Positions 6,434 through 63,642 of a stretch of 64,000 nt of DNA are shown here, piece after piece. Position numbers and translations under genes: made by a program. The stretch comes from Paramacrobiotus metropolitanus (Eukaryota; Tardigrada; Eutardigrada; Parachela; Macrobiotidae), in the NCBI RefSeq assembly GCF_019649055.1, contig NW_026570247.1, positions 434,001 through 498,000 on the forward strand. The letters run 5' to 3'. Below the pieces are notes generated by a model. It was not told where the DNA came from. It worked only from the letters and a program-made list of their open reading frames with translations, and ran no database searches. Numbering within the stretch: position 1 is the first letter of the stretch; each line of letters opens with the position of its first letter.

Positions 6434-6940
6434 TCAGAAACGTAAGGCTGTTCTAGCCATATAGAACGTTTTGGAGGCGGGAGCGTTCCGGAATCAGATC
6501 TCTGCTTTAATATATAGGAGGATCCTTGTTTGATTTAGGATTATCGCAGAATGGCAACACTGTTACTGTCTGTGGTTCTGTACAGTATGTAGCTTGCGTA
6601 GAACAGCACTGCCTCCATACGGTCTGTGGAAATTCGAAACGTGGTTTTGCTGGGATTCCCGAAACACAGCTACATTTCACTAGGAGGTTTTTTCTTTGCA
6701 TATTGAATTGTGTGTAGTTTTCCACTTCAGTGTTTCCTTTGATGCAAACGCCCCGATTTTGCAGAGTCCGTGACCAGTTTTGCGCTGTACAAACTGAGCA
6801 CTAAAGCGCCACTTGTAGATGCCGTAGTTCCAAGCTTCCAGCCAACCGTTTTTATTATTAAAATAACTGCCACTATACTGCAAAGTTGGCCTTTTCGTCT
6901 GAGCTAGATCGTATGCGTATAACTGCAACAAAGGAATAAC
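6434..6940. other. 5' flank of the intact subtype B gene
   Basis: No gene is recognised. This is the presumed promoter and 5' UTR of the gene starting at 6941; no confident core element was identified. Confidence 0.4.
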
Positions 6941-12349: not shown

Positions 12350-12988
12350 CTTGGGATACTGCCACTACGGTTCACAACAAAACACCACAGTGCACATCTC
12401 AACCTGGCTAATGGCACTACAAAAGGTCATTTGACTTTTAATACATACTGTGTACTGCGGGACGTAGTGGAATGATTCACTACAGTCATGTAGTGGTCTA
12501 AACATAAATAAAGAGATGGATGAATCAATCATAAACAGAGAAAACGTATTTTATCGAGCAAGCGCACGAAATCAAAGATATCCTGGAAGACCAGTGCCAA
12601 AACATCGACTACTGCGATACAGAAAGCAACAGCAAGGGTCAATTAATGCACCGACGTAATGAAAGACGCTTACACTACAGTGTGAGGAGATGTTTATCCT
12701 AAAGGATGCTTGCCGCAGTAGTAGCTTTGCAGTGGTTAGTCGTTCGGCTATAGACGCAGCTGTCGCGGGTTCGATTCCCGCCTGTGGCGCGTTTTTTGGG
12801 AACGTCGCTTTTCACACAAACGACGCTTCTTGCAGTAAGTCAAGGATAGCGCAGACACAGTTCGGCGTGTCCGTCAGACATGGAAGACCTCGCTGATGCC
12901 CAACACCGCCACTTACCCAGCTGACCCACAACCACCGTCCGCAAGTCCACATCATCAAAACACCGCACTGTCCCGTCGCCGCGGTATA
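12350..12988 (-). pseudogene. Inverted duplicate of the 3' end of the first gene (relic exon 4 plus flank)
   Basis: The minus strand from about 12988 down matches exon 4 of the first gene: D-G-T-V-R-C-F-D-D-V-D-L-R, with the stop TGA at 12874-12876. It contains a small indel that breaks the middle of the exon. The following flank also matches (GACGGACACGCCGAACTGTG beside GACGGATACGCCGAACCGTT at 511), and 12350-12640 matches 570-780 inverted. It is therefore a segmental inverted duplication of about 0.6 kb, with the tRNA-like sequence at 12712 inside it. Confidence 0.7.
12712..12789 (+). tRNA. tRNA-like gene or tRNA pseudogene
   Basis: The 5' GCCGCAG pairs with the 3' CTGTGGC as a 7-bp acceptor stem. 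The T arm CGCGG-GTTCGAT-TCCCGC type holds a perfect B box, GGTTCGATTCC. A T run (GTTTTTT) follows at 12791-12796, as expected for a Pol III terminator. The anticodon region (GGCTATAGAC) would give loop CTATAGA with anticodon ATA, but the anticodon stem pairs poorly and the A box is weak. It may be a decayed tRNA or a tRNA-derived repeat. Confidence 0.45.
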
Positions 12989-15676: not shown

Positions 15677-15884
15677 GATTCTGCCCACGTTAAAATTGTT
15701 GTACAGTCGATAAAAAACCAAGGAGATTTTTATGCAATTAATGATTCTGCTCACGTTGAAGTTGTGGCACAATTCTATAGGTGTAGTATCATGCGGTGTC
15801 TACTCAGTACTCACTGGATAGAGAATACCTTCAGTTGTGCATCTTATAGCGCTGTGCGCATGCATGTGCTGTTGCAGCACTCTC

Positions 15885-16151: not shown

Positions 16152-16218
16152 CACCGATGACCGGAATCGAACCCGTGTCAGCTGCGCCTCTTATCAGTTA
16201 TCACTGAACAACACCGGC
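16152..16218 (-). tRNA. tRNA-like relic
   Basis: On the minus strand the 5' GCCGGTG can pair with the 3' CATCGGT, and a B box GGTTCGATTCC is present. The length (about 67) is short, the T stem has a mismatch and no convincing anticodon arm is seen. It is probably a tRNA pseudogene or tRNA-derived repeat. Confidence 0.3.
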
Positions 16219-30330: not shown

Positions 30331-30558
30331 TATGAAATACAATAAAGCTCCTGGAGAACCGCATTGGCTCACCATTAAACCTCTCACTCAACTTTCAGCC
30401 ATTTAAACAGAAATGCGACGACGACGTTGTTTTATGTACCTGCACGCATATAGCCAGTGACGTTCACCATAAAAGCGTTAATTTCGCTGTTTCGCTGGCT
30501 TTTCATCGACTTTGAATACTCGAGCAGTGTAAAACGTGAAACCCGCGCGAACACGACC

Positions 30559-32558
30559 ATGGCTCCCGGAGCAGCATTGCCGCCATTTCGGCGGATGCTA
30601 CCGGCGGCTGATGGGCGTTCCTTGGGCTATCAGAATACGGTGGTGGTGCGGAGCGCTAGGGACGCCGATAATTATTTTCTTGGCTACATTCATGACATCT
30701 CCGACGACGGCAAATATATTCTGGTTGACTTTGACTCGAAACTGGTGGATGCTTGCTGGATGGAGGCCAGCAGTGTGTGGCTAGCGCAGTTTTTGGGCAA
30801 TGTACCTGAAGACTATCGCTGGAACAATGAAATGTCGCGGCAGGTGGCGCTGCGCGATGTAGACAACGGGCCTTTCCGCTTCCGAACGGCGGCATTTCAG
30901 TACAGCATCGGTGACAACTATAACAAAATTTATTTCGTCACGACGGCTCCCGCGGCGGATGGCTGCTGGCTGGGCTTTGGTAGCGAGGCGAGCGTTGAAG
31001 TGGTCGACCGTTGCCAGGTCATCACGGAACTACCGCCGGTCGCCACACCCAGCGCCAGCGCCACCGATGGCTTCCATTACGCTAAGCACGTTATTCCGTT
31101 TCCCGGCACGCTGTCTGTCCTCCTAACAGCCGCTAATCGGGACCGTCTCGTCCAGTGTTTTCGTGATGCCTTGAATGGTCATGCGTCGCTAAAGGGGATG
31201 ACGGACAGCTGTCGTTTCCACTTGCGTATTGGAACGGACAGCTGCACCTTCATCGTGTTGAGCGCCCCGACGGAGGTTATGCCGGCGGAATGGACACGAA
31301 CCACTTTACTGCAGGTGCTGCAACAGTATTGCGCACATCAGGCGGGAGAAACCCCCGAAATGACGATTCCGGCGGTGACGGAGCAATGGTGTCCTAACGG
31401 CAAGGACGGAGACTGGTGCGAGGATGCCGGAAAGTGTAAGCGAAATACCTAACCGTTGAGTAGTAACACACTTAACTCGTTGTCTCCCTAACATTAGCAG
31501 TTTCTTCGTCGGCCGATCTCGAAGGTACCGACTTCGGTCATCTGCCACCTTCGCTCTGGACTGCCGTCGTCCTTCACCTGGACCTCCACACGCCAGCCAT
31601 TGCCAAAAGGTCAGTAGTTCGTCGTTGGGCAGAGGAACGACGGAATACATTAACCGTTAACTCTTCGCAGAGTGTGCGCACTGTGGCAGCAGATCCTCAG
31701 CGACCCGCGCAACACACAGCACATCGTCTTCCGCTGCCAGTCCTGCAGCCACGGCGCAGTCCGCTGCCGCAGCCAACGCGACCGCGCCGCGCTGATGTTG
31801 TTAACCCGCTCCCTCACCGCCGCCACGAAAAGCCTGACGATCAGTCAGCCCCGCGAGCACTGCCAGGTCTCCTCCGTCTGCTTCGACTTGTTCTGGGCCT
31901 TGAGGCCCCGCCTACCGCTGCTCATTCTGCGCGACTACGGGCTGGTCGGCGGCGTGGAGCTTCCCTCTTTTACGGACATCCAAATATCGCGCTACTACGC
32001 CCAGCGTATCATCATCCGCAACTGGAAGCTGTGCAATCTCTTCGGCTGCACGATGCATCGGCTGTTCTCTGCGCCGTTCCAGCCTAACGCCAAGATCCCG
32101 CCGGGCAACCGGACACTGACGTTGGCCGTCGAACGCCTCGAATTCACACTAGAAAATGTGGCGTTCCCTGGCGACACGGACGACGACGCCATGTTCTGCC
32201 GTTTCATGTGGGCCGTTGACGCCGCGTGTCCGCCGGTCGGCGATGACCTTTATGAAACAGTGGCGCAGGTGCACCGGGGTTGGGTGCGCAGTGGGCTCTA
32301 TCCTGATCAGTGGGAAAGGATCCGGGAATATCTCGATCTGTGAGTCGTCGAAATCGAAATGCACAGAGCTGACTGTGAGATACGCGCGTGTTATTCCTGT
32401 GTTTTTAATTAATCTGTGGTGCGATTGTTAGGTTCAGCCCGTTTCGTGGCGATGGGACAGCACGCCGGTGGAAAAACGTGGACCTGTTGACGGTGGACGT
32501 GCGGCAGCTGAGCAAACTGGCGGTGCTGGGCATCAGCGAAGTCTTCGCAAGGCGATAG
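30559..32558 (+). CDS. F-box family gene, subtype A, intact (593 codons)
   Basis: Exons are 30559-31435, 31501-31609, 31671-32339 and 32432-32558; the sum is divisible by three, with phases 1, 2, 2 and introns of 65, 61 and 92 bases. The start ATGGCT at 30559 aligns with the ATGGCC starts of the other A copies. Exon 1: A-L-P-P-F-R-R-M-L, G-Y-Q-N-T-V-V-V, F-L-G-Y-I-H-D-I-S-D-D, V-D-F-D-S-K; then a second block with A-L-R-D and C-R-F-H-L-R-I-G-T-D. Exon 2: F-box L-P-P-S-L-W-T-A-V-V-L-H-L-D-L, joined by R-V-C-A-L-W-Q-Q-I-L. Exon 3 ends I-R-E-Y-L-D-L; exon 4 reads F-S-P-F-R-G-D-G-T to F-A-R-R. It is the best reference for the subtype. Role inferred: SCF adaptor; the N-terminal Tudor-like block may bind a ligand or substrate. 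Confidence 0.88.
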
Positions 32559-33583: not shown

Positions 33584-33630
33584 TCTAAGCAGGGCGCAAT
33601 CCGAGGGAAACCGAGAAACGGCTGAAAAAG

Positions 33631-33700
33631 GCGCCGATGGGGAATCGAACCCCGGCTACGTCGTTAGATCAGCGTAGGCAATACCATTGCACCACGGCGC
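33631..33700 (-). repeat. tRNA-like Pol III unit inside the 3' LTR
   Basis: Minus strand: GCGCCG...CGGCGC acceptor-like ends, A box TGGTGCAATGG and B box GGTTCGATTCC. The anticodon arm CTACG...CGTAG encloses about 12 bases, so a functional isotype cannot be assigned. Confidence 0.65.
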
Positions 33701-33992
33701 AATACGTTGAAATCCTTTGAAAGACTTTATCGCTGTACGTGAGCCGCTTCTCCGCGCACACCCCCTTTGCAGCTTTCGCTACGTCCTCGTAGCATGATGA
33801 AGCGATCCTTCAAGCGGCGGCTCAGGCTCACCGCATCATCCATTCATTTTATCGTTTTATTCGTTTTTGCTCTGTTCCTCCCGTTCGAGGTTAGCACACC
33901 AGTCTCATAGGCGAAGTGGACGTACCGAACCACGCTCTGCTACCATCTAAGCAGGGCGCAATCCGAGGGAAACCGAGAAACGGCTGAAAAAG

Positions 33993-34063
33993 GCGCCGAT
34001 GGGGGAATCGAACCCCGGCTACGTCGTTAGATCCGCGTAGGCAATACCATTGCACCACGGCGC
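33993..34063 (-). repeat. tRNA-like Pol III unit inside the 5' LTR
   Basis: Same unit as in the partner LTR, with one extra base in the T arm. It has A box TGGTGCAATGG and B box GGTTCGATTCC on the minus strand. Confidence 0.65.
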
Positions 34064-34323
34064 AATACGTTGAAATATTTTGAGACTTTATCGCTGTACA
34101 GCCTGTACGTAAGCCGTTTCTCCGCTCACAGGTGTTAAGGACTGCGAAAGCGAAAATGTACATGCATGCACCGACTCACAGTAGCAGAGAGTTTTCTCAT
34201 TATTGCCGTTTTTTCATCAGACGGTAAACCAGTCTGGTACTCCCGTGCCAATGCCGTTTCCGTTGATTTCCGTTTCACTAATCCATAACATAATCATTTT
34301 TTAAGCTATTACGGTTCGAACAG

Positions 34324-35437: not shown

Positions 35438-36263
35438 TGTTTCTGTGACACGTCATCGCTTCGATTGGATGATTCACGCTGGTCGCCTCTGCCAGTTGAC
35501 TAAAGAACCTTCTTGACTGTTGAACGGATTGAGAAAATCCTTATTATAAAATACACATTTTAGCGGTGTTGGCTCTGTCACGTTTGCTCTGACAACTGTG
35601 ATCTGCTTTAGCTCTCTCCAGTGCACTGTGGCCCAGTGTATGTACCTTAAGTATTCTCTCACATAATTTGCACTGTGCAGTCTGTGCTACCAACTTTATT
35701 CAGCTAACCAGTAATCGTTGCCGACGAAAATTAATGTTTCGGCAACTAAACTTGTTAGCCTTGGTCAGCAGCGTTAACATCGAAAAATTCAGTACATTAT
35801 TTAACTAATCATTTCCCCATTAATTCTTGATTTTCAAATTTGCAGCTTTGCAGAGAGACAGGTTTGACGAAAGCGCAAACATCAAAACAATGGAGATAAA
35901 AAAAAGTCCAAACCAATGTGGAATCACGCTGATAAACCGATAAACCCGGCGCTGCCAACTAATTAAATTGCCATACATGTTGATGTTGCGCTTCGGAAGC
36001 CCATAAACGTTGTTCGTTTTCACGAGTAGACGGCCTTGACCTTTGCATGCATGCGTTCCAGTTTCCAACATCATCCAACAGCGCACCCTCCGTGGTCCAC
36101 GAATTTCTGCTTTTGTCAGATTGCTCTGAATCACTAATTGTAAGTTCCGCTCCGTAAAGTATTGGCTCAGCATTTGCATGTATGATTACTAATACACACT
36201 TAACTTCAACTGTGATCGGCAGACTTCCAGACTGGATTTTTCTAGGTCTGACCGTAAAATAGT

Positions 36264-38889
36264 ATGGCAAATATGAATTCCGCGACCGGACCGATGCCTC
36301 CGTTCCGGCGGCTGCTAGCTGGTGTCAACCAGATGGGCTATCAGAACACTGTTGCTGTTCCCGTCAATGGCGCAGTGTGGCTGGGATTTATTCAGCATAC
36401 TGACGGAGAGCACGTGTTTGTCGATTTCGACTCGAAGAAGGTCGAAGCCAGATGGATCCCTGCAGCCAGTATATATCCGATGCCGTGGTACGACCATTTC
36501 GAAAATCACCAACGCCACCGGCCTCTGTATGCGGCACTGCGCGACAAAGACGACGGCCCGTTCCGGTTTCAGCCGGTTTTTCTGTCATATGCTCTGGCGG
36601 CAGGTCCGCAGGCTTACATGTATTACGTCAAGACCGATGTCCAAGGCGGAGGTTCTGCCAGCGCTCGCATCGAACTGGTGGATCATTTTCAGGTCCTCGG
36701 TCTGGAGTGGTTTACGGAGCCAGCGTTGGTGCAGCGCAATCACGGGCTGTTGTATACGAAATACTTCGTCCCCTGTGCCATGTCCACGCAGGTGCTCGAC
36801 GAGCCGGTCGACAGATCGCGCGTCATTAAGCAATTTCGCGAAGCGTTTGCTGATGACAAGACGTTGACCGACCTGACGGATGCCTGCCGGTTTCACTTGC
36901 GTATCGTAGCGGAGGGGTGTGTGTTTCTGGTCATCGGCATCGGAACGAGTGCGAATGTGCAGCAGACGACGTTGGCAAAGCTCTTGATAATGTTGGAGAG
37001 ACATCTAGCCATCCGGACGGGTCTGCTACCGATTCGTTTCGACACTTGCCCCGGCACTGAGACTAGCATTGGCACGAAAGATAGGATCAGTAGCTCCACG
37101 CGTTAGTGAATCTAGAAAAAATTCAGTTCCTACAGGTCTAACGTAATTCTCACTGAACTGATGTCTAGATCGTCTGCTTCTTTGGTCCTTAGTAAATGCG
37201 CAGATATTTTCCGTACCGTATAAAGAAGCTCTTGACCGATGACTACTTATCCATGAAATTTTTATTTCATTTTTGTGTTCATGATGTAGGCATCCGAATG
37301 GAGCCATCGTGTTCGGCAGCCTTGTTTCGCCACCTGCCTTACTGGATCTTCAGTGAAATCTTTTCTTACCTGGATCTGCATTCCATGATGACGCTCAAGC
37401 GGTACGCTGTCCCAATAAAAATACATGCAAATGGCGAAAATCGTAGTAGCGAATTTCCGAGTTTTTGCAGTTTCACTATGACAACTCCGGTTGTGCATTC
37501 GTGCAAATTCCCGTTTCCGTTGCTCAAAATTACTCACTGTTTGCTCATTTCTCTGATACAGAGTGTGCGCATTATGGCAAGACCTGCTGAGCAGTCCCTG
37601 CGTATACGAGCACGTCCGGGTATGTTTGGACGCCATGACCAGGGAAACCACGTCCGACAACTACAACTCCTTCCGTGTGGCAGCGCTACTCACGCGCACC
37701 ATCAACTCCGCCACCAAAAGCTTGACGATGATAACACGCTCTTTTGGCGATTGCGCGATATTCACGGTTTTTTTGCTGTATGCCATGGAAGCCGTGGCGG
37801 TTTACGTGCCCCTGATAATACTCAAGGACGTCATCGAGGACAGCCTTGGGTCAGGTTTTAAGGGCCAAATACTGATTCATTCTATGACCGTAGATGCAAC
37901 GCTGTTTGAATACAATTGTCAACGGATTGTGCTGCACAACTGGAAGGTCAGCCACCTGTTTGGCCGGGCAATGTACAAAATTTTTAGCGATGATCCAGCC
38001 ATGACATTCTATACAAATCTGCATCCCTTGCCACGCCGGGAAAGGGAGTTAATGGTGCCTCTCGGGAGGGAAAAGGCGCTGGCCATTGATCAGTTAGTGA
38101 TCACACTGCCGCGGCTGGTTCTGCACTGCCACGAAGGCCAGTCTAACATGGTCTCCCGCATCATGAAGGCCGTCAATGAGCACTTTCCGCCGGTTACCCA
38201 GGAGATGCATACAAAGGTCAGGGCTATTTACGCACGTTGGGTGCGTGACCTGGTGTATCCGTCCGAGTGGGAAACCATTCGCTGCTACCTTTCACTGTAA
38301 GTCTTCTCTGCAAATCCGTGACGGTAATACAGGAGTGACGTGGTTCTAATGATGCGAGATGTTCTTCCCATCCTAGTTTTCCTTCCGGGAGATACTTTAC
38401 GGAATAAAGTGCCATCGGTTGCCGAACGTAGAACTCAGAAATTTTTGAACAAAGCTATAATAATATGCATTCTATCTGTGTACTTCGGAATTATGGTGGC
38501 GGGAAATATTCTGCAAAGTTCTCTCTAAGGGCAGCTCCAGGTAGTACGTAAAATGCGTAAAAAACGAAAAAATGCTGCTCAGGATAGCGCGCGCGCAGAT
38601 AGTGCAAGGAGGGAGGCAGTGCACAAGGTTTAGTGAAATATAGTGCGCGCAGTAATCATCATAATAATTTACAATGCCGGTAAACGGTGAAATGCCGTAA
38701 GGACAGTTATATAACTTATAATACTACGGTAACACAGCATTTGAGATGCCAAATTACAGGTTTAGCGGCTTTTATTCGGACGGCACACCTCGATCATGGG
38801 TGGATGTCGATTTGCGACTGGTGGATCCCGGCGACCTGAGCAAAATGGCGCTCCACGGGATCCACGAAGTATTCCTGGTTGGCCACTAA
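36264..38889 (+). CDS. F-box family gene, subtype B, nearly intact with altered first donor
   Basis: Exons are 36264 to 37080 or 37089, 37290-37401, 37562-38296 and 38760-38889. Exon 1 holds M-P-P-F-R-R-L-L-A-G-V-N-Q, G-Y-Q-N-T-V-A-V, W-L-G-F-I-Q and F-D-S-K-K-V-E-A-R-W, then A-L-R-D-K-D-D-G-P-F-R-F. Exon 2: F-box L-P-Y-W-I-F-S-E-I-F-S-Y-L-D-L. Exon 3: V-C-A-L-W-Q-D-L-L to C-Y-L-S-L; exon 4: F-S-G-F-Y-S-D-G-T to V-G-H, TAA at 38887-38889. The donor that paralogs use (AAAG/GTAGGC) reads AAAG/ATAGGA here. A GTAGCT nine bases downstream keeps phase 1 and adds three codons, so the gene may still be spliced (598 or 601 codons with the stop). Without splicing, the frame stops at TAG 37104-37106, before the F-box. 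Confidence 0.75.
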
Positions 38890-40878: not shown

Positions 40879-42039
40879 TTGCAAGGCATGATGCCTGATT
40901 CTGAAGACAGTGGAGGTTTTGTTCAAGAGGATTTGTCTGATTTGCCGTTTGTTGATTTGGCAAAGAAACTATCCAGTATTCTGCAGGAAGTGTATGCAAA
41001 TTTACCACCCAAGAATCACAAACTCCGCCCGATCCTCACTAAGAACAAAGATGTCCTGATGCAAATCCCATCTTTACTGAAAGATCACCACATCCGATTA
41101 TATGAAAATGCCCTAAAGACGGAAACCGAACTGATCCATGAAAAGGAGCGCACAAGACAACTTACTAGTGCCCGTGTTGAAGATACCGGCACCCTTACCG
41201 ATGACCACCACGACAAGCCGCGAAAAACTTATGCCGCCATCACGAAAGAACCTGTGCCGGCAGTCATCCTCCAGCCGAAGAAGACAGAGCCACTACCTCC
41301 TCCCAGATCCCGCACAACAACAAGTGAGCTCACCAAACTATCCAATGCTCTCAACACTGCTCTCCCTGCTGGTGCCGCTGATCTGAACGTGACCGACATC
41401 CGTCCCATTGGTGGTAAGCGTGTTCTACTTCGTTTTAAGAATGCCGACAGTGCCGCAAATGGTAAGTCAATCTTGGAAAGCCATTCAGAAGCTTTGGGTT
41501 ATGATGTGGTCAGTACTAAACCCAAAACGTCAAGGGTTATTGTTCGCCGAGTCCCAAAAACACTGTCTAATGACGATTTCTTGAAAGAATTACGCGTTAA
41601 AGTAAACATCCCACCCAATTCAGTGCTTAAAATTGTCACCCGGTTGACCAGTCAAAGAGAGGAAGTATCCACGTGTGCAATTGTTTTCGAGGTCAGCCAG
41701 GATGTTCGCAATATCCTGACTGACCAACGGTTCTTAATGATTCAGTGGTCCCGATGTCCTATAGAGGACCATGTTTACGTACCACAATGTACTAGATGTT
41801 GTGCCTACGGTCACACTTCGACAAAGTGTGAAAAATCCCCTCGCTGTGCGTTTTGTGCTAAATCCCATCACACTAACGACTGCACGGAGAATGCTGATTT
41901 TCGATTCATTTGCGCAAATTGTAGTGATAGCGGTGTTTATTCTCCGACAAACTACCATACGGCGTATGACCACTTTTATTGCTCTGTCTTCAAAAATTCG
42001 CGATACTTTTACAACCGAAATTTCCCAAAAAACCGGTAA
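40879..42039 (+). CDS. LINE ORF1 protein with zinc knuckles
   Basis: A 386-residue open frame. After an N-terminal helix-rich half there is an R-V-I-V-R-R-V-P region and, in the last quarter, cysteine-rich knuckles: C-T-R-C-C-A-Y-G-H...C, C-A-F-C...H-H-T-N-D-C and C-A-N-C. This is the gag-like nucleic-acid-binding protein of CR1/L2/I-type LINEs, which coats the element RNA. It overlaps the start of ORF2 by about 60 bases in another frame. It has no internal stop, but its ORF2 is dead. Confidence 0.75.
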   Translation: MQGMMPDSEDSGGFVQEDLSDLPFVDLAKKLSSILQEVYANLPPKNHKLRPILTKNKDVLMQIPSLLKDHHIRLYENALKTETELIHEKERTRQLTSARVEDTGTLTDDHHDKPRKTYAAITKEPVPAVILQPKKTEPLPPPRSRTTTSELTKLSNALNTALPAGAADLNVTDIRPIGGKRVLLRFKNADSAANGKSILESHSEALGYDVVSTKPKTSRVIVRRVPKTLSNDDFLKELRVKVNIPPNSVLKIVTRLTSQREEVSTCAIVFEVSQDVRNILTDQRFLMIQWSRCPIEDHVYVPQCTRCCAYGHTSTKCEKSPRCAFCAKSHHTNDCTENADFRFICANCSDSGVYSPTNYHTAYDHFYCSVFKNSRYFYNRNFPKNR

Positions 42040-45000
42040 ACGCTAACGAAATTTTAATTAACAACCAGGCTGTGCCAAATAATTGTTCGACAATGCTTAA
42101 CGATGAAAATTTGTCCAGTAACGATATTGGCTACCCGACCGTAAATAGTCGACAACCGAAACATCCTGTTCTTCTTGAGAACATCCGCATACGATGTTGT
42201 AATGTCAGAAGCGTCAAGAACAAACGTGAAGAAGTGAAATTGTTTTGCTCGGACAGTGATGTGACCGTTCTTACTGAAACATATGATAGACCATTTATGA
42301 CAGGTTCTGATTTTGCTGACCTGGATAACTACAATGTCTTTCGAAATGGTAGAGCTGATGGTCGTGGTGGTGTTGCTGTTGTTATCAGAAAATCTCTTTG
42401 TGCTTTTCCCATGCCAGAGCTTAATACTCCTTCCCTTGAAATTTTGTGCGTTGAGTCTCGTGCTATTGATCGTATTTTTATTGCTTTCTATGCGCCCCCT
42501 GATAAAAGTATTCATCTTGTGCCTGCCCTGATTAAACACCTGCGTTCTAATTTCTCTCTTGGTCTATTAGCAAAATGCATAATCATGGGTGATTTCAATC
42601 GGCCTGACATAAATTGGTCTAATAAAACCGCAAGAAAACCAGCCAGTCGTGAGCTGCTGTCCGCTATCAAAGAATTCGAGATGATACAGCTAGTCAACTT
42701 TCCAACCAGGAAGAACAATTGTCTTGACTTGTGTCTCATCAGTGCCAACTCGCTTTTTCACCAGCAGTTCCCATCAGCCCGCCCTCCTCTACCAACGATC
42801 ATATCGGTTTTGAATTTTCTCTGAAACTAAAGAAATATCGCAGAAAATTTCGTACTGTTAAGCGATGGAAAATCGAAAGCAATAATGTTGGTCAGTTCAT
42901 CGACGCGTTAAATGTTGTCAACTGGGAAAGTTTATTTTGCAATTTAAACGTTAATGAAAGAGCAGATAAATTTGAAAATGTTTTTCTCGAAACAGCAAAA
43001 GCATATTTTGAATTTAGTGACGTGAAAATTCGGATTGGTGCAGTGAAATATCCTAGAAATATTAAAAAAGTAATAAATTCAAGAGATCTTGCTTTTCGTA
43101 AATACCGACAGATAAATCTACCGAATTTGAAAACTAAATGGAAAAAGTTGTCAAAGAAATTAAGTGTGCTGCTAAGAAAATTTGAAAAACACAGACTTTC
43201 TGATATTTCCACTGCACACAGAAACAATCCATCCAAATTTTGGCGGTATATGAAATCGATGAATGACCGCATCGGTATGCCACCTCTCAAAAGGCCGGAT
43301 GGCACGACGGCAGCTACAGATAACGAAAAGCTAATCTACTGAACGCTCTGTACCGCGAGTCTCAGTCGACCTGCAACGCGCACTGTACTGGCTCTGATTT
43401 AAATTTAATTTGCGGCAACGAAGAAAGGTGGGAAATCTCGGAGCTTTTGATTTTTGAACAACTTGCGAAAATTTCTGTAACAACTTCAAGTGGCAAGTAC
43501 GAAATCACTAACAAACTTCTGAAAATTGCTGCTCCAGGCATTCTTGCTCCGCTCAGATTAATTTTTAATGCCGCTATCAATGAAGGTGTGTTTCCGGTGA
43601 AGTGGAAGCATTCGTTTATAACAGCAGTACCGAAAATCTCTGCAGATCACAGATTGCCGGGTAGCTATCGACCAGTTTCAATGTTGAACCCAGTTTCAAA
43701 AATTTTTGAACGTTGTCTTGATCAATTAATTCGTGAACATTTGAACAAAAAATTCAATACTTCTGGATCACCAGTTTGCTTACCGGCATAAAAGGTCTAC
43801 TGAGCTACAGCTATTTCTTTTGTCAAGTCTTTGAACGATTTCAACACAAGCGGCATTGCTGTAGATGCAGTATTCTTGGACTGCTCAAAAGCTTTTGATA
43901 AGCTTTCCACGAATCCATCATAAACGCGCTGATCGAAATGAATCTTCCCAGTCACATCGTACATTTGGTCTCTGATTACTTGAAAGATCGAACACAATGT
44001 GTGACAGTTGGAAATGAGTTTGCTCATTCGTTACCCGTTAACAGTGGTGTACCGCAGGGTTCAGTTTTAGGGCCACTACTGTTCATTTGTGTCTTAAATT
44101 TCATTCTCCGCGCATTAAAAAACGGTAGCGCCGCTCTCGTTTTGCAGATGACGTAGTTATTTTTCGCCCCATTACTGAAACAGGTGACAGTCAGCTGTTG
44201 CAGGAAGATCTTACTTCTCTCAATGAATGGCTTGCTAGCAAAAGCTCAGTCTAAACGCTGCTAAGTCTGCCCACGTTCACTTCTCAAAACAGAAATCCTC
44301 GGTCTGCCCATATTATTACAGTATCGATAATGTTACGATTCCAAATTGTGATCATGTCAAACACTTGGGCATATTCGTTGACCGAAAACTAAATTTTAAA
44401 TTAAATAGTGAAAATGTAGCAAAAAATGCAACCGAAAAATCAGCTACATTAATCACATTTTCCGTTATACTGATTGCGGTGCTCGCATACGACTTTTTGA
44501 GTCTCTTGTCCTCTCGGTCATCGATTACTGTTGCTCCATCACGCACCCGTTATTCAAACAGTCCGCTGATCTCTTAGAACGTTGCCAGAGAAGATTCACT
44601 AAATCCTTGCGACTCGGCAACAATGTTCTAAATTATGGTGCACGGCTAAAAGAGCTTAAATGGGATGATTTAATTACTCGCCGTTTAAAAAAAGCGCTGT
44701 TGTTTTTGTATAAATTGGTCTTTCGGGTGATTCCTATGGGTGATCAAATCGTAACTCCTCTTACGTTTTCGGTCTCTGCGTTTGAGTCTGTTGCAGGAAA
44801 CACAAGATCATCCGAGCGTCTAATGAAACATCCATGTCCTATAAAACCTGCCGCGACGACCTTTTGTGGGATAACAGTGACTACTGACCACCTGTCCTAT
44901 ATAAACACCCTCGCCTCCATCTGGAACGAGCTTCCTTTGCAGCCAGTAGCCTATGTCACATTAAAAGCCTTTTCGGAAGCCCTGGAAACCGTGAAATTGA

Positions 45001-46783: not shown

Positions 46784-47757
46784 TATTGTCATCCGGTTTC
46801 ACGACGAGAAGGATCGGGAGGCCGCGCGAGCCAGAACTGGACAAACACAAAGAAGACCTAGGAATAACTGTGAGTGAAGCGCGAAAACGTGTAATTAAGC
46901 TCATAATAAAGCGCGTACCGAGAGAAATGACTGTCGAAAATTTTCATAAAATTGTGTCGGCTAAAGTACCAGAAGCCTGTCACGTAAAAGTGGTTAAAAA
47001 ACTGACTGGCAAATCTGAAAATGTGAAAACGTGCGCTATGGTTATTGAAACATCTCAAGATGGCAGAGAATTTTTCGAAAAAACTGGTTGCATTCGTTTT
47101 GATTTTTGCATTTGTCCGGTAGAGCGCTACGTGGTTCGCTGTTTTAACTGCGGTAACATCGGTCATGTAGCTAAGTTTTGCAAATCACCTTGTCGTCAAG
47201 TTACCGAAAATGGTGTGGCACCCACCGGGAGCTCAAAAACGGGTAGAGTTTGCTGATGTGACTAATTATGTTACCAATTCTGATTGTGTTATTGAAAATT
47301 TGCAAAAAGTTAAAATAAGATGCTGTAATATAAACGGAATTCCGTGTAAATACAGTAATGTTAAACACTTTTGTTCCGAGGCAGATATCACCGCATTAAC
47401 CGAAACTTTTGACAGAGCAGATTGTAACGATAATCTGTTTACCAACTTGAATAATTTTAATGTTTTTCGTAAATGGCGGAAATCTGACGTTTTCGATGAC
47501 AATCATGGTGGAGTGGCGTTAGTAATGTCTCATAAGTTCAGTGGAAAAAGACGGTCTGACCTCGAGTGTGATGAATTGGAAATTTTGTTCGTAGAGTCAA
47601 CTTCGCTCGATTGTATTTTTGGTGTATTCTATGCACGACCAATTTTTAAAACTATTGTTGTCCCTCGCCTAATTGAGCATCTACAAGAGAAATTTCCAGT
47701 TGAACTACGTAATAAACTTATTCTAATGGGCGATTTCAACTTACCGGATATTTGCTG

Positions 47758-47935
47758 TGTGAGCGGAGAAGCGGCTCACGTACAGCGACAAAATCTTTCA
47801 AAGGATTTCAACGTATTGCGCCGTGGTGCAGTGGTACTGCCTACGCGGATCTAACGACGTAGCCGGGGTTCGATTCCCCCATCGGCGCCTTTTTCAGCCG
47901 TTTCTCGGTTTCCTTCGGATTGCGCCCTGCTTACA
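47758..47935 (+). repeat. 5' LTR of miniature element
   Basis: It contains the tRNA-like unit at 47818-47888: A box TGGTGCAGTGG (47824-47834), B box GGTTCGATTCC (47867-47877), ends GCGCCG/CGGCGC, and CCTTTTTC just after as a possible weak Pol III stop. Confidence 0.85.
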
Positions 47936-48120
47936 TGGTAGCAGATCGTGGTTCGGTACGTCCACTTCGCCTATGAGACTGGTGTGCTAACCTCGAACGG
48001 GAGGAACAGAGCAAAAAAGAATAAAAAGATAAAATGAATAGAGGATGCGGTGAGCCGGAGCCGCCGCTTAAAGGATCGCTTAGGCTCGCTACGAGGACGT
48101 AGCGAAAGCTGCAAAGGGGG

Positions 48121-48298
48121 TGTGAGCGGAGAAGCGGCTCACGTACAGCGACAAAATCTTTCAAAGGATTTCAACGTATTGCGCCGTGGTGCAGTGGTAC
48201 TGCCTACGCGGATCTAACGACGTAGCCGGGGTTCGATTCCCCCATCGGCGCCTTTTTCAGCCGTTTCTCGGTTTCCCTCGGATTGCGCCCTGCTTAGA
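48121..48298 (+). repeat. 3' LTR of miniature element
   Basis: Same as the 5' LTR except for two positions; tRNA-like unit at 48181-48251. Confidence 0.85.
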
Positions 48299-51200
48299 GC
48301 TGGAATGCAATGAGCGCCTCTAGCTGTACTTCTCATAAACTGCTGAGAGCGTTAAAAGAATTCAATTTTCGTCAAATAATAGATTCTCCAACTAGAAAAA
48401 ACAACATCCTGGATCTTTGTTTCGTTTCCACTTATCGTTTAGTTACGGATGTTGAAATTATTTCGCCTCCTTCAGCAACAAATGACCACTCTGCGTTTCA
48501 GTTTTGCTTGCACACCGAATCCTGTTTAGCTGAGACAAAGTATGTGAAGGAAACGTGGAAAATACCGTCTGCTAAAATCGTGCCCTTTCAGGATGCTTTA
48601 GGTCCTGTTGATTGGTCTGCTGTTCTGATTGATCCCGATCCCTCTGTTTTAGCTTCACGCTTTGACCAAACGCTGATTAAAACTGCTGAACTTTTTTTTC
48701 GGTTTGGAAAACATAACCCTAAAAAAATTCGAAAATACCCCGCCCGAATACAAAAGGCAGTTAATGCTCGCGACAGATTGCATAAAAGGTCTTTGAAAGA
48801 AATTTTCCCCGTTGAAAAAGAACGCGTAAAACGGCTGTGGAAAACTGCGTCGAAAAATGTAGATGCTGTTTTGCGTACCTATGAAAGGCATAATATTCTT
48901 GAAGTAGCCACGTCTACACGTAATAACCCAAAAAAATTTTGGCAGTATGTTAAGCGTACAGTTGATCGAAAACCGTTTCTTTCTATTAAAACTCCGGATG
49001 GTAAAATTCTGATTTCTGATGCTGAAAAAGCGAATGCGTTTAACAAGCTGTTTTTGGAATCTCAAAACGTTTGTCTAAGACACTGTTCCGGTACTTTACC
49101 AGCAAAAGACACTTCCGTGACCTTTGTGATTACTGAAGACGATGTCACCCGTGCAATGGGTCAAACCTCTTTTTCCTCTTTGTCGGGACTTTTAAAATTT
49201 CAAACTCTTTGTTAAAGGCGTGCGGGCTTAAGATTGTTGCTCCTTTGGTTAAATTGTTCAATGTTTGTATTCAAAGCGGCATATATCCGTCAGTCTGGAA
49301 AACTTCTTTTATTTCGCCCCTCCCAAAATCTTCTTGTAATCAAACTGTATTAAATAATTACCGTCCAATTACCGTCCAATTGCTATCCTGTATCCAAAAT
49401 TTTCGAACGATGCTTGGCTAATTATTTAACGTTTTTTCTAGAAACTAACGGGTTGTTGAGTGATAATCAATTTGGGTATCGAGCAAAAAGAAGTACAGAA
49501 CTACAGTCGTTGCTTTTTACAAAATTCATAAAAAATTTTATTGGAAGTGGCTACGAAGTGGATGCCCTGTTTTTTTGACTGTTCAAAGGCGTTTGACCGA
49601 GTGGACCATGCATCACTGCTTGAAATACTCGCTTCGTTCTCCGTACCTCCTGATGTCGTACGGCTATTCAGCAACTATTTAACGCATCGGCGACAAGTGG
49701 TAGTTGTAAATGGCAAGGTTTCTGAGAGCGGTATTGTAACCAGCGGCGTACCACAGGGATCCATAGTTGGCCCTATTTTTTGCAACTGCGAATTGAGCGG
49801 CCAGCCAGCTGTCTTGCCTAATGGAAGTAAAATTTTTATCTTTGCAGATGACGTTTTTTTATGTAGGCCAATAGTTGGGGACGATGATCGCGAAAAGTTA
49901 CAGGAAGATATTAATTCGGTTTCCGATTATGCAGCGAAGAAAACCTAAGTTTTAATCCAAAAAAATTTGTGTTTATACGTTTTTCTTTGAAGCGTGATTT
50001 GACATCTGTCCCTTAATATTATTTGAACAACGTAGAGGTTGAACAGAAAAATATTACAAAATATTTGGGGTTGTTTGATGATAGACATCTGCGTTGGAGT
50101 GAACATACCAGTAATCTGTGTATGAAAGTCCGCAAACGAATTGGCTACCTGTTTTCGATGTTCGATAGTTATGATTCTGCGGCGCTAATATGTTTATTCA
50201 AAGCTCTTGTCCTACCCATCTTTGATTATTGCAGTCCCGTAGTAAATCCTTTTTTTAAAACACCCAGGGATGCCCTTGAAAAGTGCGCATTCAAATTTCT
50301 CAAGCGTTTACGCTTAGGAAATGCCGCTGATGACTACTGTGGTCGTCTCCGAGAATGCGGCTGGGATAGTGTACAGCTACGTCGCATAAAGCGTTCATTG
50401 ACTGTAGCTTATAAAATGTTATTTGGTATTACTCCTTTTTGCGATAATTTTTTCGTTGTTTATGAATCCGTTACTGCCGTTAGTACTGTTGCAGGTAACA
50501 CGCGGAATGCCACTCGTATGGCTCAACATCCATTCCCGATCCAAGCGGCTAACACAACCTTTTGTGGCACAACTGTACCGGCAAATGAAAACGAATTTTC
50601 CAACCGGACCGCCAAACTATGGAATGACCTCAACTTGAATGAAAGCGCTTATCGGTCTTTACGGACCTTTGAGAAGGCATTGGACAGCGTTTCATGGGAG
50701 CATATTCCTTGGATAAAAGAGCTGTTACCTTGTTAATACCTTCTTTCCCGTCTCTGTTTTTAATCAACGACATATTTCATTGGAGAATATGTGTTTGAAT
50801 TTCATTGTTTCTGATTTGGTTGTCTGTAGATCTCGATAAGGAGCGATTCCTTGTATCTAGAGACGTTAAGCAATAAACCTAAACCTAATCCGATGCCGTG
50901 GTATAATCATAACGACTTCGAGAATCGCCCAGGCAAGCGGCCCTTCTATGCGGCTCTCCGCGACGAAGACGACGGTCCGTTTCGGTTTCAGTCGGTTTTT
51001 CTATCATTTGCTTTTGGGGCATGTAAGCGCTGTTGTTTATATTACGTCAAAACCAATTACAAAAGTATTACGAGTCACACGAGCCAAGTTTCTGCAAGCG
51101 CTCGCATCGAACTGATCTGTAACTGCCAGATCCTCGGTGTGGACTGGTTTAGTAGGCCACCGTTGCTGTACAGCCTCAGTGGGCTGATGTGCAGGAAATA

Positions 51201-56127: not shown

Positions 56128-58805
56128 ATGAATTCCGTGGCGATTTCGATGCCTCCATTCCGGCGGCTGCTGACTGGCGTCAACCAGATGAGCTACGTTG
56201 CCGTCAGTGTCAAGGACGAAATGTGGCTGGGATTCCTCCTGGATATCAACGGTGACCGCGTGTTCGTCGATTTCGACTCGGAGAATTTCACTCCGCGACG
56301 AAGACGACGGTCCGTTCCGGTTCCAGCCGGTTTCTTATGTGTACGCTCTGGCAGCATGCAAGCGGTGTTATATGTATTTCGTCAAGATCAATGCCCAAGG
56401 CACCACGACTAACACGGCTGAGGATCCGGCTCGCTCTCGCATCGAACTGATGGATCATCCGCAAATCCTAGGTCTGGAGTGGTTTACTGAGCCGCCGTTG
56501 CTGCATCGCAACAGCGGACTGTTATGTACGAAATACTTTATTCCGTGTACAATGGCCAGCCAGGTTCTCGGAGAACCAGCCGACCGATCGCGAATTATTA
56601 AGCACTTTCGCGAAGCTTTTGAGAGTGATCCGGTGCTGGCTGTCCTGCGGCCGGATCTCTGTAGGTTTCATCTGCGCATCGAAATGAATGGCTGTACGTT
56701 CGTGGTCATTAGCTCTGAAACAAACGCAGATACAAGAGAGATGATGGTTGCAAAGCTGACGACAGTAGTGGAGAAGCATCTAACGACGCGCACCGGTTTG
56801 ATGCCGGTATGTTTTGGGAATGGCGCTAGCCCCGCTACCATCGACTCTGAAATCTACACAGCAGGTGGGCAATAACAAGCAAAATTGCAATTAGGTGGGC
56901 AATTTTGTTTACCAATATCAACAAAACCCAACTTCAGTAAATAAATTTAAAGGAAATTTGAAAAGGTAAAGTTTGAGCGTTGTGCTAATATTATTCATAT
57001 TAATTTAGACAACCGAATGGAGTCAGAATCCTTGTTTGGTTATCTCCCTCACTGGATCTTCAGTGAAATTTTTTCTTACTTGGACCTGCATTCTCATGCA
57101 AAACTCAATCGGTACGTTCTCTCATTACGAGCCCGAAATTACATGTTTCGCATATTTTGGTAGCCTTATCTAAGCAAAACGTTAGGAAAATATCGATTTT
57201 ATTCGTGAAACGGAACTGCTATCATCAGTTAATCGGCAATCTACAGTAACTGCGGAGCGCATTAAGGCATTGCCATAAGCGTGGTGTAACGGTCATCAAT
57301 GATCACTCAAGCGACAACTTCGCGCTAATATGGTTCTACCTGTACCTTTACATGCTCAGTTTTTTTTTAAGATTCCTTCTTTATTTACAATAATAACAAA
57401 ATCCCAGCAGAGCTGCCAAGAAAAACTACATGCTCGGTTTGTCGACAAGCCTGTATGTTTACTGACCGTTGCTTCGTACAGGGTGTGCGCTTTATGGCAC
57501 ATGTTGCTAAGCAGCCCCCACACAACCAAACACATCCGCGTATGTTTGGACAGCCTGACAAGTGGGACCACGTCGGACAACTACAACTGCTTCCGAGTGG
57601 TATCTCTGCTCACGCGCACCATCAACGTCTACACCCAAAGCCTGACAGTAATAACGAGCTCTCTCGGCGATGGCTATTTTTTTCTGGTTAACTTCTTGCT
57701 GGCCTTGGAATTAGTAGTAGAAGTCTGTGTACCACTGATAACGTTGAAGGACAATATTTTCAACGGCTGTAAAACGAAACGAGGGCTGACCAATGGAAGC
57801 TATGGAACGCTTTACTTGGAACATTCTTTGACGAGAGATGCAGTGCTGCTGGAGAACAGGCGCTGTGAGTGGATCGTTCTGCATAACTGGACAGTCAGCC
57901 ATATCTTTGGTAAGCCCATGTACGAGATCTTTCTCGAGAAAAGATTTCACCTCCTGCGGCCTCTGCCACCTCCGGAGAAGAATTTCATGATGCCTCTCGG
58001 GTGGGACCACGTGCTGGCCATTGATCACATCGAGGTCACGGTGCCGCGAGTTGTTCTGTACTGGGAGGATGACCGTGCTACCATGGTCAGCCGCATGATG
58101 TGCGCCGTCAACGAACACTTTCCGCCGGTAACGCAGGAAATGCTGGCCAAAGTCGGGACCATTTACGCTCGCTGGGTGCGGGACCTGGTCTATCCGACGG
58201 AATGGGAAACCATTCGCACTTATCTTGCATTGTAAGTTCCTTTCACCAAGCATCGGACGGTAAGGCAATGCTGTGAATAAAGTTTTCCTACTTGGCTAAG
58301 TAATTACCTACTTGCTTTAATTAAAATCTGAGTACACACTGCTTCGCGCTTCGTTTGCCGGACATCACTGGCTCTCAGTCTCCTTGTGTTTTGTCTTTTT
58401 TTCGGTAATTGTTGATTCATGTTGGCATGCGTGAACGTGCAGTAGTACCGTGTGTATATACCTACGTGATTAATCGTTGCCGGCGATGTGCAGACATATT
58501 CAAAAATCAGTAGCGGTTCAAGTAAAATATTGTACTGAAATAGAAAATGAAATTAGGAATTGAGTTGAATACTGTGTACTAGTATTACCTTGCATAATAC
58601 TGGCATGCGCATTATCAGGTTCAGTGGCTTTTACGCAGACGGCACACCGCGATCATGGAGGGACGTTGATCTGCGACTGCTGGATCCTGGCGAACTGAGC
58701 AAATTGGCGCTATACGGAATCCACGAGGTGTTCCAGGTTGACTACTTGGTCAGCATGCGGTGCCGCAGGAAGCATTGGCGTGACACTGCACCGCATCCGG
58801 CTTGA
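56128..58805 (+). pseudogene. F-box family gene, subtype B, with internal deletion in exon 1
   Basis: Exons are 56128-56864, 57009-57111, 57482-58231 and 58619-58805. Exon 1 starts M-N-S-V-A-I-S-M-P-P-F-R-R-L-L but lacks Q-N-T after M-S-Y (9 bases, in frame), then jumps from F-D-S-E-N to the A-L-R-D-E-D-D-G-P-F block, losing roughly 100 bases and shifting the frame; from L-R-D-E-D-D-G it is open to a phase-1 donor GTGGGC. Exons 2-4 are clean: F-box L-P-H-W-I-F-S-E-I-F-S-Y-L-D-L, R-V-C-A-L-W-H-M-L-L to I-R-T-Y-L-A-L, and F-S-G-F-Y-A-D-G-T. The last exon is longer than usual (62 codons including stop, against about 43), ending D-T-A-P-H-P-A. A protein with the F-box part alone could still be made from an internal start. 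Confidence 0.7.
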
Positions 58806-61122: not shown

Positions 61123-63642
61123 ATGGATTCGTCCGGGATTACGATGCCGCGGTATCGACCGCTGGTGGCGGCTGTCAACCAAATTAGCTACCAGAATACG
61201 GTCATCGTCCGTAATCCCGATGACTCGTGGTGGCTGGGATATATCCAGGATATGGACGGCGACCGCGCCTTCATCCACTTTGACTCCGCAAAAGCCAACG
61301 CGCGATGGATCCACGTGGGCAGCGTCTGGCCGCTGCTCTTCTTGAAGGAGGGGCCCGGATATGTCGGTTGCGACAATGTCCCAGCGTACGTGGCACTGCG
61401 CGATGAAGACGACGGCCCGTCGTCTTCATCGCGCAGTTGTGCTTCCGCGCCACCGTCGTCTTGGGTTTCCTTACTAGCTGCAAAAACTGTCACATGTTCT
61501 GCATCCAATCCGCTGCGGCCAACAGCAGCGCCCACGCAGCCACCGCTTCCGTAGAAGTGGTGGAAATTGGTCAAGTGGCCGCTTACTTGCCGCTCTTGCC
61601 GTCCCTGATGGGGCGCCGCAACGGAATTATCTATTCGAAATACGTTATTCCCTCACCCCGTGCATCCAGTGTCCTGTGCGATGCCTCGAACAAATTCCGC
61701 ATCATCAAACACTTCCACGATGCTTTCGATCGCAACGAGCGGTTGTGCCACCTAACCGACCGTTGTCGCTTTCATCTGCGCATCGAGCGGGATGGCTGCA
61801 TGTTCATAACCATCAACGTCGCCCAACAGCGGTGGGACACGCCGGGGGATCACGGCGCCGGTCTTGTCGCAAGTGCTGGACACGCATCTGGCCACCCGGG
61901 GATACTTTACCGGCCATCGGCTGCGGACGATTGCGTGAAAGCGAGAGTCCCTCTTGCGCAGCCGGTTAGTTTAATCCATAGTTTTATTCATTAGTGTCTA
62001 TTAGCGCGGGCTTGTAGTTATGTTATCTTTCGCGGGGGAGGGGGCAGATAAACCTTCGCTTAGCGCCGGTCCACCCTCTCCATTATGGCCGCTCGCAGCC
62101 GTGACGCGATGATGTGATTATAATCGCAGAGCGTGTGGAATAACAATTACAATGCAGGACTGCAAAAGTGACTTTAACGTTGGCCGATATAGCCGTTTGC
62201 GCTGGTTCGATCCGATGTAAGAGTCGCTTCTGCTGTCTCACAAAAATCCACCCACGTTTTGCCATGTGACGCAGAATTCCTGCGAGAATTCTTTATTAAG
62301 CTAATGATTCGCAGTTTAGCTTTCACGCTGTCATCGTTGCGCAGGTTGGGAAAACGACGCAGTGCAGCCGGCCGCCCACATCGGTCAGCTGACGCCGTGG
62401 CTCATCAGCAACATCCTGGCACATCTGGATCTGCAATCACAAATGAGTGCCAAACGGTAAGCGTTATTGGAGGTCTTGCTCAGATCTGCGGAACTAACAG
62501 AATGGTTTATCCCGAGTTGATCTAAGTCGGTGCAATGAGGTCACCAGTAGTCAGCTCCGGGGAAGAACTCTTGTGCGCCATTTGGTCGGACGATACCACC
62601 AGGCAGAGCGGAAGTTGGGAAGAAAAGCGCGGCAGTTGTTCTTATGTTGGCTAATCTGCTGCTTAATACCGTCGCTCTTCCACAGGGTGTGCGCTCTGTG
62701 GCAGTTGCTGTTGAGTAGTCCGCAGATGACAGAACACATCAGCATCAGCATGGAAAGCTGCTATTGGCTGCAGACGCACAGCAACAACTGCTTCAAACTG
62801 GCGGCGCTGCTCTGCCGCTCGATCCATTCCACCACCATCAGCCTCACCTTCCTCAACGTCTTCCCGCCGATGTTCTGGCTGTTTATGAGGCCGTTGCTGA
62901 AAATCCTGGGAATCCGACTGCCGTTGATTGTCTTCAAAGTATGCCAGATAGTCTCCGAGCGCGGGAACCAAACGGGCCTGAACGGACAGAGGGAGCAGCG
63001 GCTGAAGCACCCGGCAATAAATATCCCAACGGCGTGTAAGGACAACTGCGAAGTCGTGGCGCTGTTCAACTGGAGAGTGTGCGAACTGTTCGGCTCGGCC
63101 ATGCACGAACTGTTTCGGTTCTTAAGAACGGAAAGTTTCGGTGTCGTTCGCTGCTTGCTAGAACACGAGTTGGCGTTTATGAAGCACCTCTCGAGGGGGT
63201 CGCACGAACTGGCCATCGACAGAATGCCGATCCGCATTCCGCGGCTCCTCCTGCGATGCAGCGACGGCCGCATGCACATGACCAGTCGCTTCATGTGCGC
63301 CGTCAACGACTGCTTCCCGCCGGTCACCGCGGAGATGCTGGCAAAGGTCACGGCGGTACATGCGCGCTGGGTGCGGACTCTGGCCTATCCGGAGGACTGG
63401 CAGACCGTTCGCAACTACCTTCTGGTGTACGTAGTTTATGGCCAGTGTAATAAAACATCAGTCTAAATTGCGCGCTGCTCAGTTTCTTCGTAAGATCAAG
63501 TTCCCCCATGCTTTGTAGGTTTAACGGCTTCCATGCCGACGGCAGCCCGCGATCATGGGAGGATGTGGATTTACGGCTCGTGGACATCTCCACACTTAGC
63601 AAACTGGCCATCTATGGTATCAATGAAGTATTCGCTGTGTGA
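61123..63642 (+). pseudogene. F-box family gene, divergent third subtype, exon 1 frame broken by a palindrome
   Basis: The start ATG at 61123 (M-D-S-S-G-I-T-M-P-R-Y-R-P-L) aligns with other starts; a further ATG lies at 61105. Exon 1 has W-L-G-Y-I-Q-D-M-D-G-D and A-L-R-D-E-D-D-G-P, then an extra inverted copy (61419-61436) shifts the frame before C-F-R-A-T-V-V. Another shift lies near 61830-61860, before V-L-S-Q-V-L-D-T-H-L-A-T-R. Exons 2-4 are clean: 62345-62456 (F-box L-T-P-W-L-I-S-N-I-L-A-H-L-D-L), 62686-63426 (R-V-C-A-L-W-Q-L-L-L to V-R-N-Y-L-L-V) and 63519-63642 (F-N-G-F-H-A-D-G-S to F-A-V). Phases are 2 and 2 for the last two introns. Sequence mixes A-like (V-I-V-R-N) and B-like (D-M-D-G-D) traits. 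Confidence 0.7.
61396..61436. repeat. 18-bp perfect palindrome inside exon 1
   Basis: CTGCGCGATGAAGACGAC (61396-61413) and its exact reverse complement (61419-61436) are separated by GGCCC. The left arm is the conserved coding sequence L-R-D-E-D-D; the right arm is extra. Confidence 0.92.

Follow-up and report, generated by a model that had tools for sequence, protein, structure and literature searches.

A Helenus-type TRIM retrotransposon with a tRNA-like unit in each LTR in the tardigrade Paramacrobiotus metropolitanus

What kind of mobile element carries a tRNA-like unit, with the A and B boxes of RNA polymerase III (Pol III), in each of its long terminal repeats (LTRs); what does this unit do there; and which other element could mobilise it? 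These questions are raised by a 541-bp element of the tardigrade Paramacrobiotus metropolitanus, located at positions 47758-48298 of a stretch of 64,000 nucleotides (assembly GCF_019649055.1, contig NW_026570247.1, positions 434,001 to 498,000 of the forward strand), hereafter the window.

The sequence and a repeat scan both identify this element as a TRIM, i.e., a miniature LTR retrotransposon (Table 1). The preliminary description had recognized 178-bp direct repeats starting with TG, a GCTG target duplication, a primer binding site (PBS) directly after the 5′ LTR, a purine tract (PPT) directly before the 3′ LTR, the lack of coding capacity and, in each LTR, A and B boxes with tRNA spacing. 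All these features are indeed present, the duplication on both sides and the boxes in both LTRs (those of the 3′ LTR start at 48187 and 48230), and a run of five T (T5) stands behind each unit. The two LTRs of the window copy show two differences, at LTR positions 157 and 177. Such an observation is far beyond chance. At the insertion site, a 195-aa open reading frame ends at the element and a 304-aa frame lies beyond it, each read alone. A Pfam search with the downstream frame gave no match; another frame, at 41970-42824, shares a similar motif and gave a match to a non-LTR endonuclease, so that the TRIM probably sits in a LINE. Finally, the hairpin located ahead of the PPT, a possible packaging or priming signal, displays a single paired change, from T-A to C-G, in two loci (L036 and L039); in each of two others (L018 and L040), one pair is broken.

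Table 1. Features of the TRIM, of related copies and of the candidate partner (window positions unless a contig is named)
Feature	Position	Strand	Basis or remark
Target site duplication GCTG, left	47754-47757		sequence, flank comparison
5′ LTR, 178 bp, TGTGAG...CTTACA	47758-47935	+	repeat scan
tRNA-like unit of 5′ LTR, 72 nt	47818-47889	+	Rfam, alignment with metazoan tRNAs, fold
A box TGGTGCAGTGG, 5′ LTR	47824-47834	+	sequence
B box GGTTCGATTCC, 5′ LTR	47867-47877	+	sequence
T5, Pol III terminator-like run, 5′ LTR	47890-47894	+	in 37/38 LTR-to-LTR spans
PBS TGGTAGCAGA	47936-47945	+	sequence; complementarity to metazoan tRNA-iMet
Leader, possible degenerate antisense tRNA-Met copy (suggestive only)	47946-47995	+	shuffles
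Hairpin CGCTACG-AGGA-CGTAGCG ahead of PPT	48087-48104	+	motif in 39/40 loci
PPT GCAAAGGGGG	48111-48120	+	sequence
3′ LTR, 178 bp, TGTGAG...CTTAGA	48121-48298	+	repeat scan
tRNA-like unit of 3′ LTR	48181-48252	+	sequence
T5 run, 3′ LTR	48253-48257	+	sequence
Target site duplication GCTG, right	48299-48302		sequence, flank comparison
Another full-length copy of this TRIM family (L023)	33584-34130	-	genome search, flanks; duplication CACC
Second family, solo LTR TGAAAG...TTGCA, 175 bp	12660-12834	+	duplication GTAA, 12656-12659 and 12835-12838
Giant element	C56:318258-342401		~24.1 kb; duplication GGTT
Giant element	C160:156181-180455		~24.3 kb; duplication GGGC

The genome searched comprises 169,799,020 bases in 533 contigs (4,484,719 bases for contig C1). 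A lipocalin-family protein, considered as a marker of the host, proved to be a common fatty-acid-binding protein that says nothing on this point. Searching it with the whole element, we obtained at least 48 matches, the copy counts being lower bounds because 40 of the 347 candidates were scored; the count proposed in the preliminary description thus reveals many copies, full, solo and in tandem arrays. Moreover, a 23-nt piece of the tRNA-like unit has 134 exact occurrences in the genome and its reversed control none. Thirty loci were cut out, corresponding to 27 distinct insertions (L005, L017 and L020 form one array, L008 and L009 another). When the last four bases before the element were compared with the first four after it, 24 of the 27 proved to have an exact 4-bp target duplication. 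L021 fails this test and has CGCTG on both sides, i.e., a 5-bp match, while L025 and L030, without duplication by the same test, are cut short at one end. All rows but one (29 of 30) have the exact PBS, the exception being L029 with TGGTAGCACA, and GCAAAGG stands ahead of the 3′ LTR in all 30. Among 13 lower-scoring places (L035-L047), exact 4-bp duplications were seen in L035, L037, L039 and L045, the rest being truncated, nested or arrays, and arrays of three and four LTRs lie inside single target duplications on C56 and C60. Solo LTRs were sampled at 20 places without a listed neighbour at LTR spacing, from the first 100 matches listed, a non-random sample coming mostly from the lowest-numbered contigs; in the 0.6-0.9 kb retrieved, all 20 show a single LTR without any internal region, and 14 of these 20 are flanked by an exact 4-bp duplication. 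Most cut copies start with TGTGAG, and the last LTR of 59 loci (20 of them picked through an exact unit match) ends with CTTAGA (32), CTTATT (6), GTTTTA (5), CTGATT (4), CTTATA (3) or other sequences (9). The TG start noticed at first holds in most copies, and the canonical TG..CA pair does not, most LTR ends being different.

To which known kind does this element belong? tRNA-derived SINEs have no LTRs and follow the non-LTR (LINE) mode of insertion. A retrozyme carries a hammerhead ribozyme in its LTR, and no Rfam ribozyme matches positions 47700-48400 at E up to 1. In plants, Cassandra is a TRIM with 5S rRNA in its LTRs; it shares with the present element a Pol III-type small-RNA sequence in TRIM LTRs, and no Rfam match to 5S rRNA was found in the same interval, again at E up to 1. 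Ajax, described in nemerteans in Kojima 2024 (PMC10886601), is also a TRIM with a Pol III promoter sequence in its LTR; it derives from 5S and has 5-bp duplications, whereas the TRIM studied here is tRNA-like with 4-bp duplications. The same source names Helenus the TRIMs with tRNA-like LTRs, found in fungi, in animals of six phyla and in a plant. The idea that a tRNA-based version in an animal would be a new arrangement must thus be given up. The TRIM is a member of Helenus: the kind is known and the tardigrade member is new. Indeed, our literature search found no report of a Helenus-type TRIM in a tardigrade, and the consulted part of a paper on tardigrade transposons (PMC11071193) does not mention tRNA, nor, in its main text, TRIM elements.

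The tRNA-like nature of the unit was assessed in several ways. Aligned with a panel of 21 metazoan tRNAs, used as a yardstick, it is closest to tRNA-Gly (score 48), followed by Glu (43) and Asp (42); 300 shuffles reached 35 at most. A covariance scan with Rfam returns tRNA-Sec as the best Rfam match (22 bits, E = 0.086), a tRNA assignment that stays under the gathering score of 47. The window contains no tRNA according to ARAGORN, which, with introns allowed, reads the unit of L054 as a tRNA-Val. The minimum-energy fold is four-way and cloverleaf-like, modestly better than shuffles (z = -1.70); by inspection, the T stem is mismatched and the anticodon loop too long. Separately, ARAGORN calls a tRNA-Val (CAC) at positions 10-83 of L013, with a TRIM copy about 1.4 kb away, and a further B-box-like site, in a tRNA-like context and with no T run directly behind, is located at window position 16173 on the minus strand.

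The way in which the unit varies between copies may indicate how it has been maintained. Among the 40 loci from the similarity search, we considered as shared any variant present in three or more loci. The ratio of shared to private variants is 2:41 in the unit and T5 and 18:39 in the LTR flanks (Fisher p = 0.0008, a guide because of the common ancestry of the loci), the last six LTR bases (5 shared, 2 private) being omitted. Private variants hit the unit about as much as the flanks and shared ones are rare in it, which argues that the moving lineages hardly changed the unit. Between the two LTRs of an element (31 pairs), divergence per site reaches 0.034 in the 5′ part, 0.030 in the unit and 0.041 in the 3′ part, against 0.0065 in T5 (a single difference) and 0.081 over the last six bases. 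Compared with the window copy, mean divergence amounts to 0.012 in the A box, 0.019 in the B box, 0.020 between the boxes, 0.063-0.077 in the flanks and 0.197 in the last eight bases, figures that follow the same trend and are biased downward in the unit since 20 loci were chosen by an exact unit match. Taken at the level of sequence, these results suggest past selection on the entire tRNA-like unit with its terminator, beyond the boxes alone. The only LTR-to-LTR span without T5 behind the unit, that of L028, has T4 (arrays contribute more than one span). Between the two units, 33 of the 38 spans are devoid of TTTT; the exceptions are L015, L029, L040 and both spans of L041, and in L029 and L040, which belong to one subfamily, TTTT stands directly before the PBS. 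Overall, the spans contain 7 runs of four or more T vs 132 of four or more A, for base fractions of 0.21 T and 0.28 A in typical copies. The spans being related, this scarcity is not a proof, and is consistent with an avoidance of terminators between units.

A second LTR family of the same genome also bears a tRNA-like unit. Its window copy, a solo LTR in which the tRNA-like part is followed by T6, had been delimited at 12681-12856; these limits were rejected, the homology beginning upstream. We found this family at ten places in the genome (10 of 10 candidates scored), all single and three of them partial matches. Six were cut: five have both ends, all five with exact 4-bp duplications, and L092 is without an end. 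A T-run stands behind the unit in most copies read. ARAGORN, applied to L088 and L089 alone, recognizes both units as tRNAs with different anticodons; the window unit folds with a z of -1.18. In L089, the second-family copy is inserted in the unit of the first family (around 1500-1700) and hence landed later. Elsewhere in the window, frames 1399-2559, 6923-7738, 15041-15799, 30454-31452 and 36258-37106 look by eye like paralogues with the motif PPFRR..YQNTV, and frames 10421-11206, 57303-58235 and 62498-63466 like a second such family; the one frame tested in each (30454 and 57303) has no Pfam match.

The PBS can pair with the 3′ end of metazoan tRNA-iMet. Within one subfamily (L039, L042 and the second internal region of L036), a similarity to antisense tRNA-Met extends through the anticodon. 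Its score, when the maximum is taken over the 21 tRNAs, was reached by 2, 0 and 1 of 300 shuffles for L039, L042 and L036, respectively, the L042 query having the slight advantage of starting two bases early. Met is also best for L043 (3/300) and for the window type (10/300); tested against initiator Met alone, L039 was equalled by 0 and the window type by 46 of 1000 shuffles. Other leader types prefer Pro (L035, 4/300) or Trp or Asn (L040, 9/300, whose sense strand scores above the antisense against initiator Met), or have no preferred tRNA (L045, 177/300; L068, 81/300). An antisense tRNA-Met leader was therefore rejected as a family-wide feature: it is best in the L039 type and fails in some types. 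The leader may be, suggestively, the relic of a primer copied too far. Searches for tRNA-Met genes of the host with initiator and elongator patterns gave none that was convincing (0, 1 and 1 matches, the last two with 3 and 2 mismatches), and these genes may be divergent.

Which element could then provide the proteins that the TRIM lacks? Using the pattern TANA followed by the PBS, with most TRIM continuations excluded, we obtained 25 places vs 3 for the control. They led to a family of giant elements present at C56, C131, C160 and other places. At C56, the LTR (325 bp) starts with TGTGAGCGCAGG and ends with CGTCTTATA; at C160, the LTRs start with TATGAGCGC and the last one ends with CGTCTTAGA. 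The terminal CTTATA of C56 and CTTAGA of C160 are those of 3 and 32 of the 59 TRIM loci, and the PBS of the TRIM is also present behind the giant LTR at C56 and C131; the C160 start, TATGAG, is unlike the TGTGAG of the TRIM. With the first TG dropped, the LTR starts of the TRIM and C56 align with a score of 25, which none of 5000 shuffles reached; the 3′ parts, with the last two bases dropped, are at chance level (1656/5000 as good). The C56 copy contains reverse transcriptase, RNase H, H2C2 and integrase domains in the Gypsy order, and looks interrupted since its reverse transcriptase match is split across two frames. The PPT of the giants, CCCAGAGGCA, is unlike that of the TRIM, and a piece-by-piece comparison revealed nothing in common beyond the PBS except short matches, 14-23 bases long and scattered (the best in antisense, E 0.002). 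The giants having been found through a TRIM-like end and PBS, independent support comes solely from the similarity of the LTR starts, from the length of the duplications and from the LTR end at C160. For the autonomous partner that the preliminary description called for, this ~24-kb Gypsy-type family, which matches the TRIM in LTR start, unusual ends, PBS and 4-bp duplications and not in PPT or internal sequence, is a plausible and the best candidate. So sparse a homology fits the view, expressed in the consulted part of Kojima 2024 (PMC10886601), that LTR homology is unnecessary; beyond PBS similarity, one fungal Helenus is reported there to be internally similar to an autonomous element.

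The C56 giant also has a long gag-like frame without Pfam match and, past the integrase, a frame across two pieces, of 918 aa in L085 and of 825 aa in L086, with a weak Pfam match to linker histone. Other candidate partners were rejected. In the L068 family on C98 (433-bp LTR, TGTCAG..TTACA), the PBS matches and the LTR start is at chance level (2671/5000 shuffles), the 3′ part being nearer to the TRIM (429/5000); in L070, the PBS matches, but no clear coding lies by it. On C98, two 433-bp LTRs, 100% identical (rounded), lie 29.8 kb apart (28863-58665) within a GTAT duplication and enclose a retroviral-type protease match; they form a candidate giant LTR element, with possible nested insertions. 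Compared by size and type only, the giants recall the planarian Burro elements, which are Gypsy elements of more than 20 kb according to the consulted part of PMC6431247, and differ from them by their host and by LTRs of 325 and 433 bp.

Taken as a whole, these data are very probably best explained by the TRIM anatomy read above, combined with a genomic RNA produced by Pol III and with proteins supplied in trans by a Gypsy element. We infer that Pol III transcribes the TRIM: it would start at the unit of the 5′ LTR, pass the first T5 in some rounds, traverse the short internal region, where T4 runs are mostly absent, and end at the second T5, located in the 3′ LTR. A tRNA-like unit would thereby stand at both ends of the genomic RNA and form its repeat R; a Met-type tRNA would prime reverse transcription at the PBS; and a Ty3/Gypsy element, the best candidate being the ~24-kb C56/C160 family, would provide reverse transcriptase and integrase in trans. 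Since T5 lies directly behind the unit, Pol III must read through the first one to make this RNA, and T5 should halt much of the Pol III before the PBS is transcribed.

It can also be envisaged that the unit works as an RNA: Pol III would mostly halt at T5, the RNA that is reverse-transcribed being a rare read-through product, and every LTR, solo ones included, would release a tRNA-like small RNA, selected for itself or as the processed end of the genomic RNA. We consider this possible, though not probable. The conservation covers the whole unit, the part between the boxes (0.020) included, in figures that comprise the 20 loci selected by exact unit match. The unit has a cloverleaf-like fold, yet with a modest z in both families and with the defects of T stem and anticodon loop mentioned above. 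The ARAGORN calls in L054 (introns allowed) and in the second-family units of L088 and L089 contrast with the consulted part of Kojima 2024 (PMC10886601), which judges Helenus tRNAs mostly non-functional. Rather doubtful is the proposal in which the unit would be more than a promoter: it would constitute the R of the genomic RNA, whose ends would be set by the Pol III start and T5, every LTR would emit a short tRNA-like RNA, and the TRIM would ride the 24-kb Gypsy element through its LTR tips and PBS, its Pol II promoter having been replaced by a Pol III one.

That the unit is a passive SINE relic, left by an insertion into an LTR, the RNA being made by Pol II from the 60 bp upstream, seems unlikely to us. 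An origin by SINE insertion is proposed for Helenus in the consulted text of Kojima 2024 (PMC10886601), neither ARAGORN nor Rfam calls a true tRNA in the window, and T5 behind the unit is awkward for a Pol III genomic RNA. However, shared variants are far fewer in the unit and T5 than in the flanks while private and within-element ones are about equal, T5 differs once in 31 pairs, and the second LTR family of the same genome also bears such a unit, behind which most copies read have a T-run. As for a dimeric tRNA-derived SINE without LTR mechanism, the rival named in the preliminary description, its small size and tRNA-type boxes are all that recommend it, and it can be discarded with near certainty: PBS and PPT lie at the internal borders, 4-bp duplications are exact, arrays alternate LTR and internal regions, and solo LTRs with 4-bp duplications refute it.

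With Pol III transcription and Gypsy trans-supply as the preferred reading, the tardigrade element can be set beside its relatives. According to the consulted part of Kojima 2024 (PMC10886601), it resembles Helenus by its TRIM size, A and B boxes in both LTRs, PBS, PPT, solo LTRs and tandem arrays, as well as by the 4-bp duplications of animal members and, through its candidate partner, by their Gypsy link. It differs by its host, Tardigrada being absent from the phyla given there, and by its Met-type PBS, which is not given there for animals (hymenopteran, vertebrate and bivalve types are Lys, Leu, Trp, Arg, His, Ile, Pro, Glu and Ser). Its A box reads TGGTG instead of the TRGCY of most Helenus. 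Two further differences are that its LTR start and unusual ends are common to a giant Gypsy-type family and that the conservation spans the whole unit and T5. Helenus thus appears to reach a seventh animal phylum, in which a concrete candidate partner shares LTR tips with the TRIM, and the signs of selection on the unit and its terminator open the Pol III hypothesis to a direct test in a tardigrade in culture.
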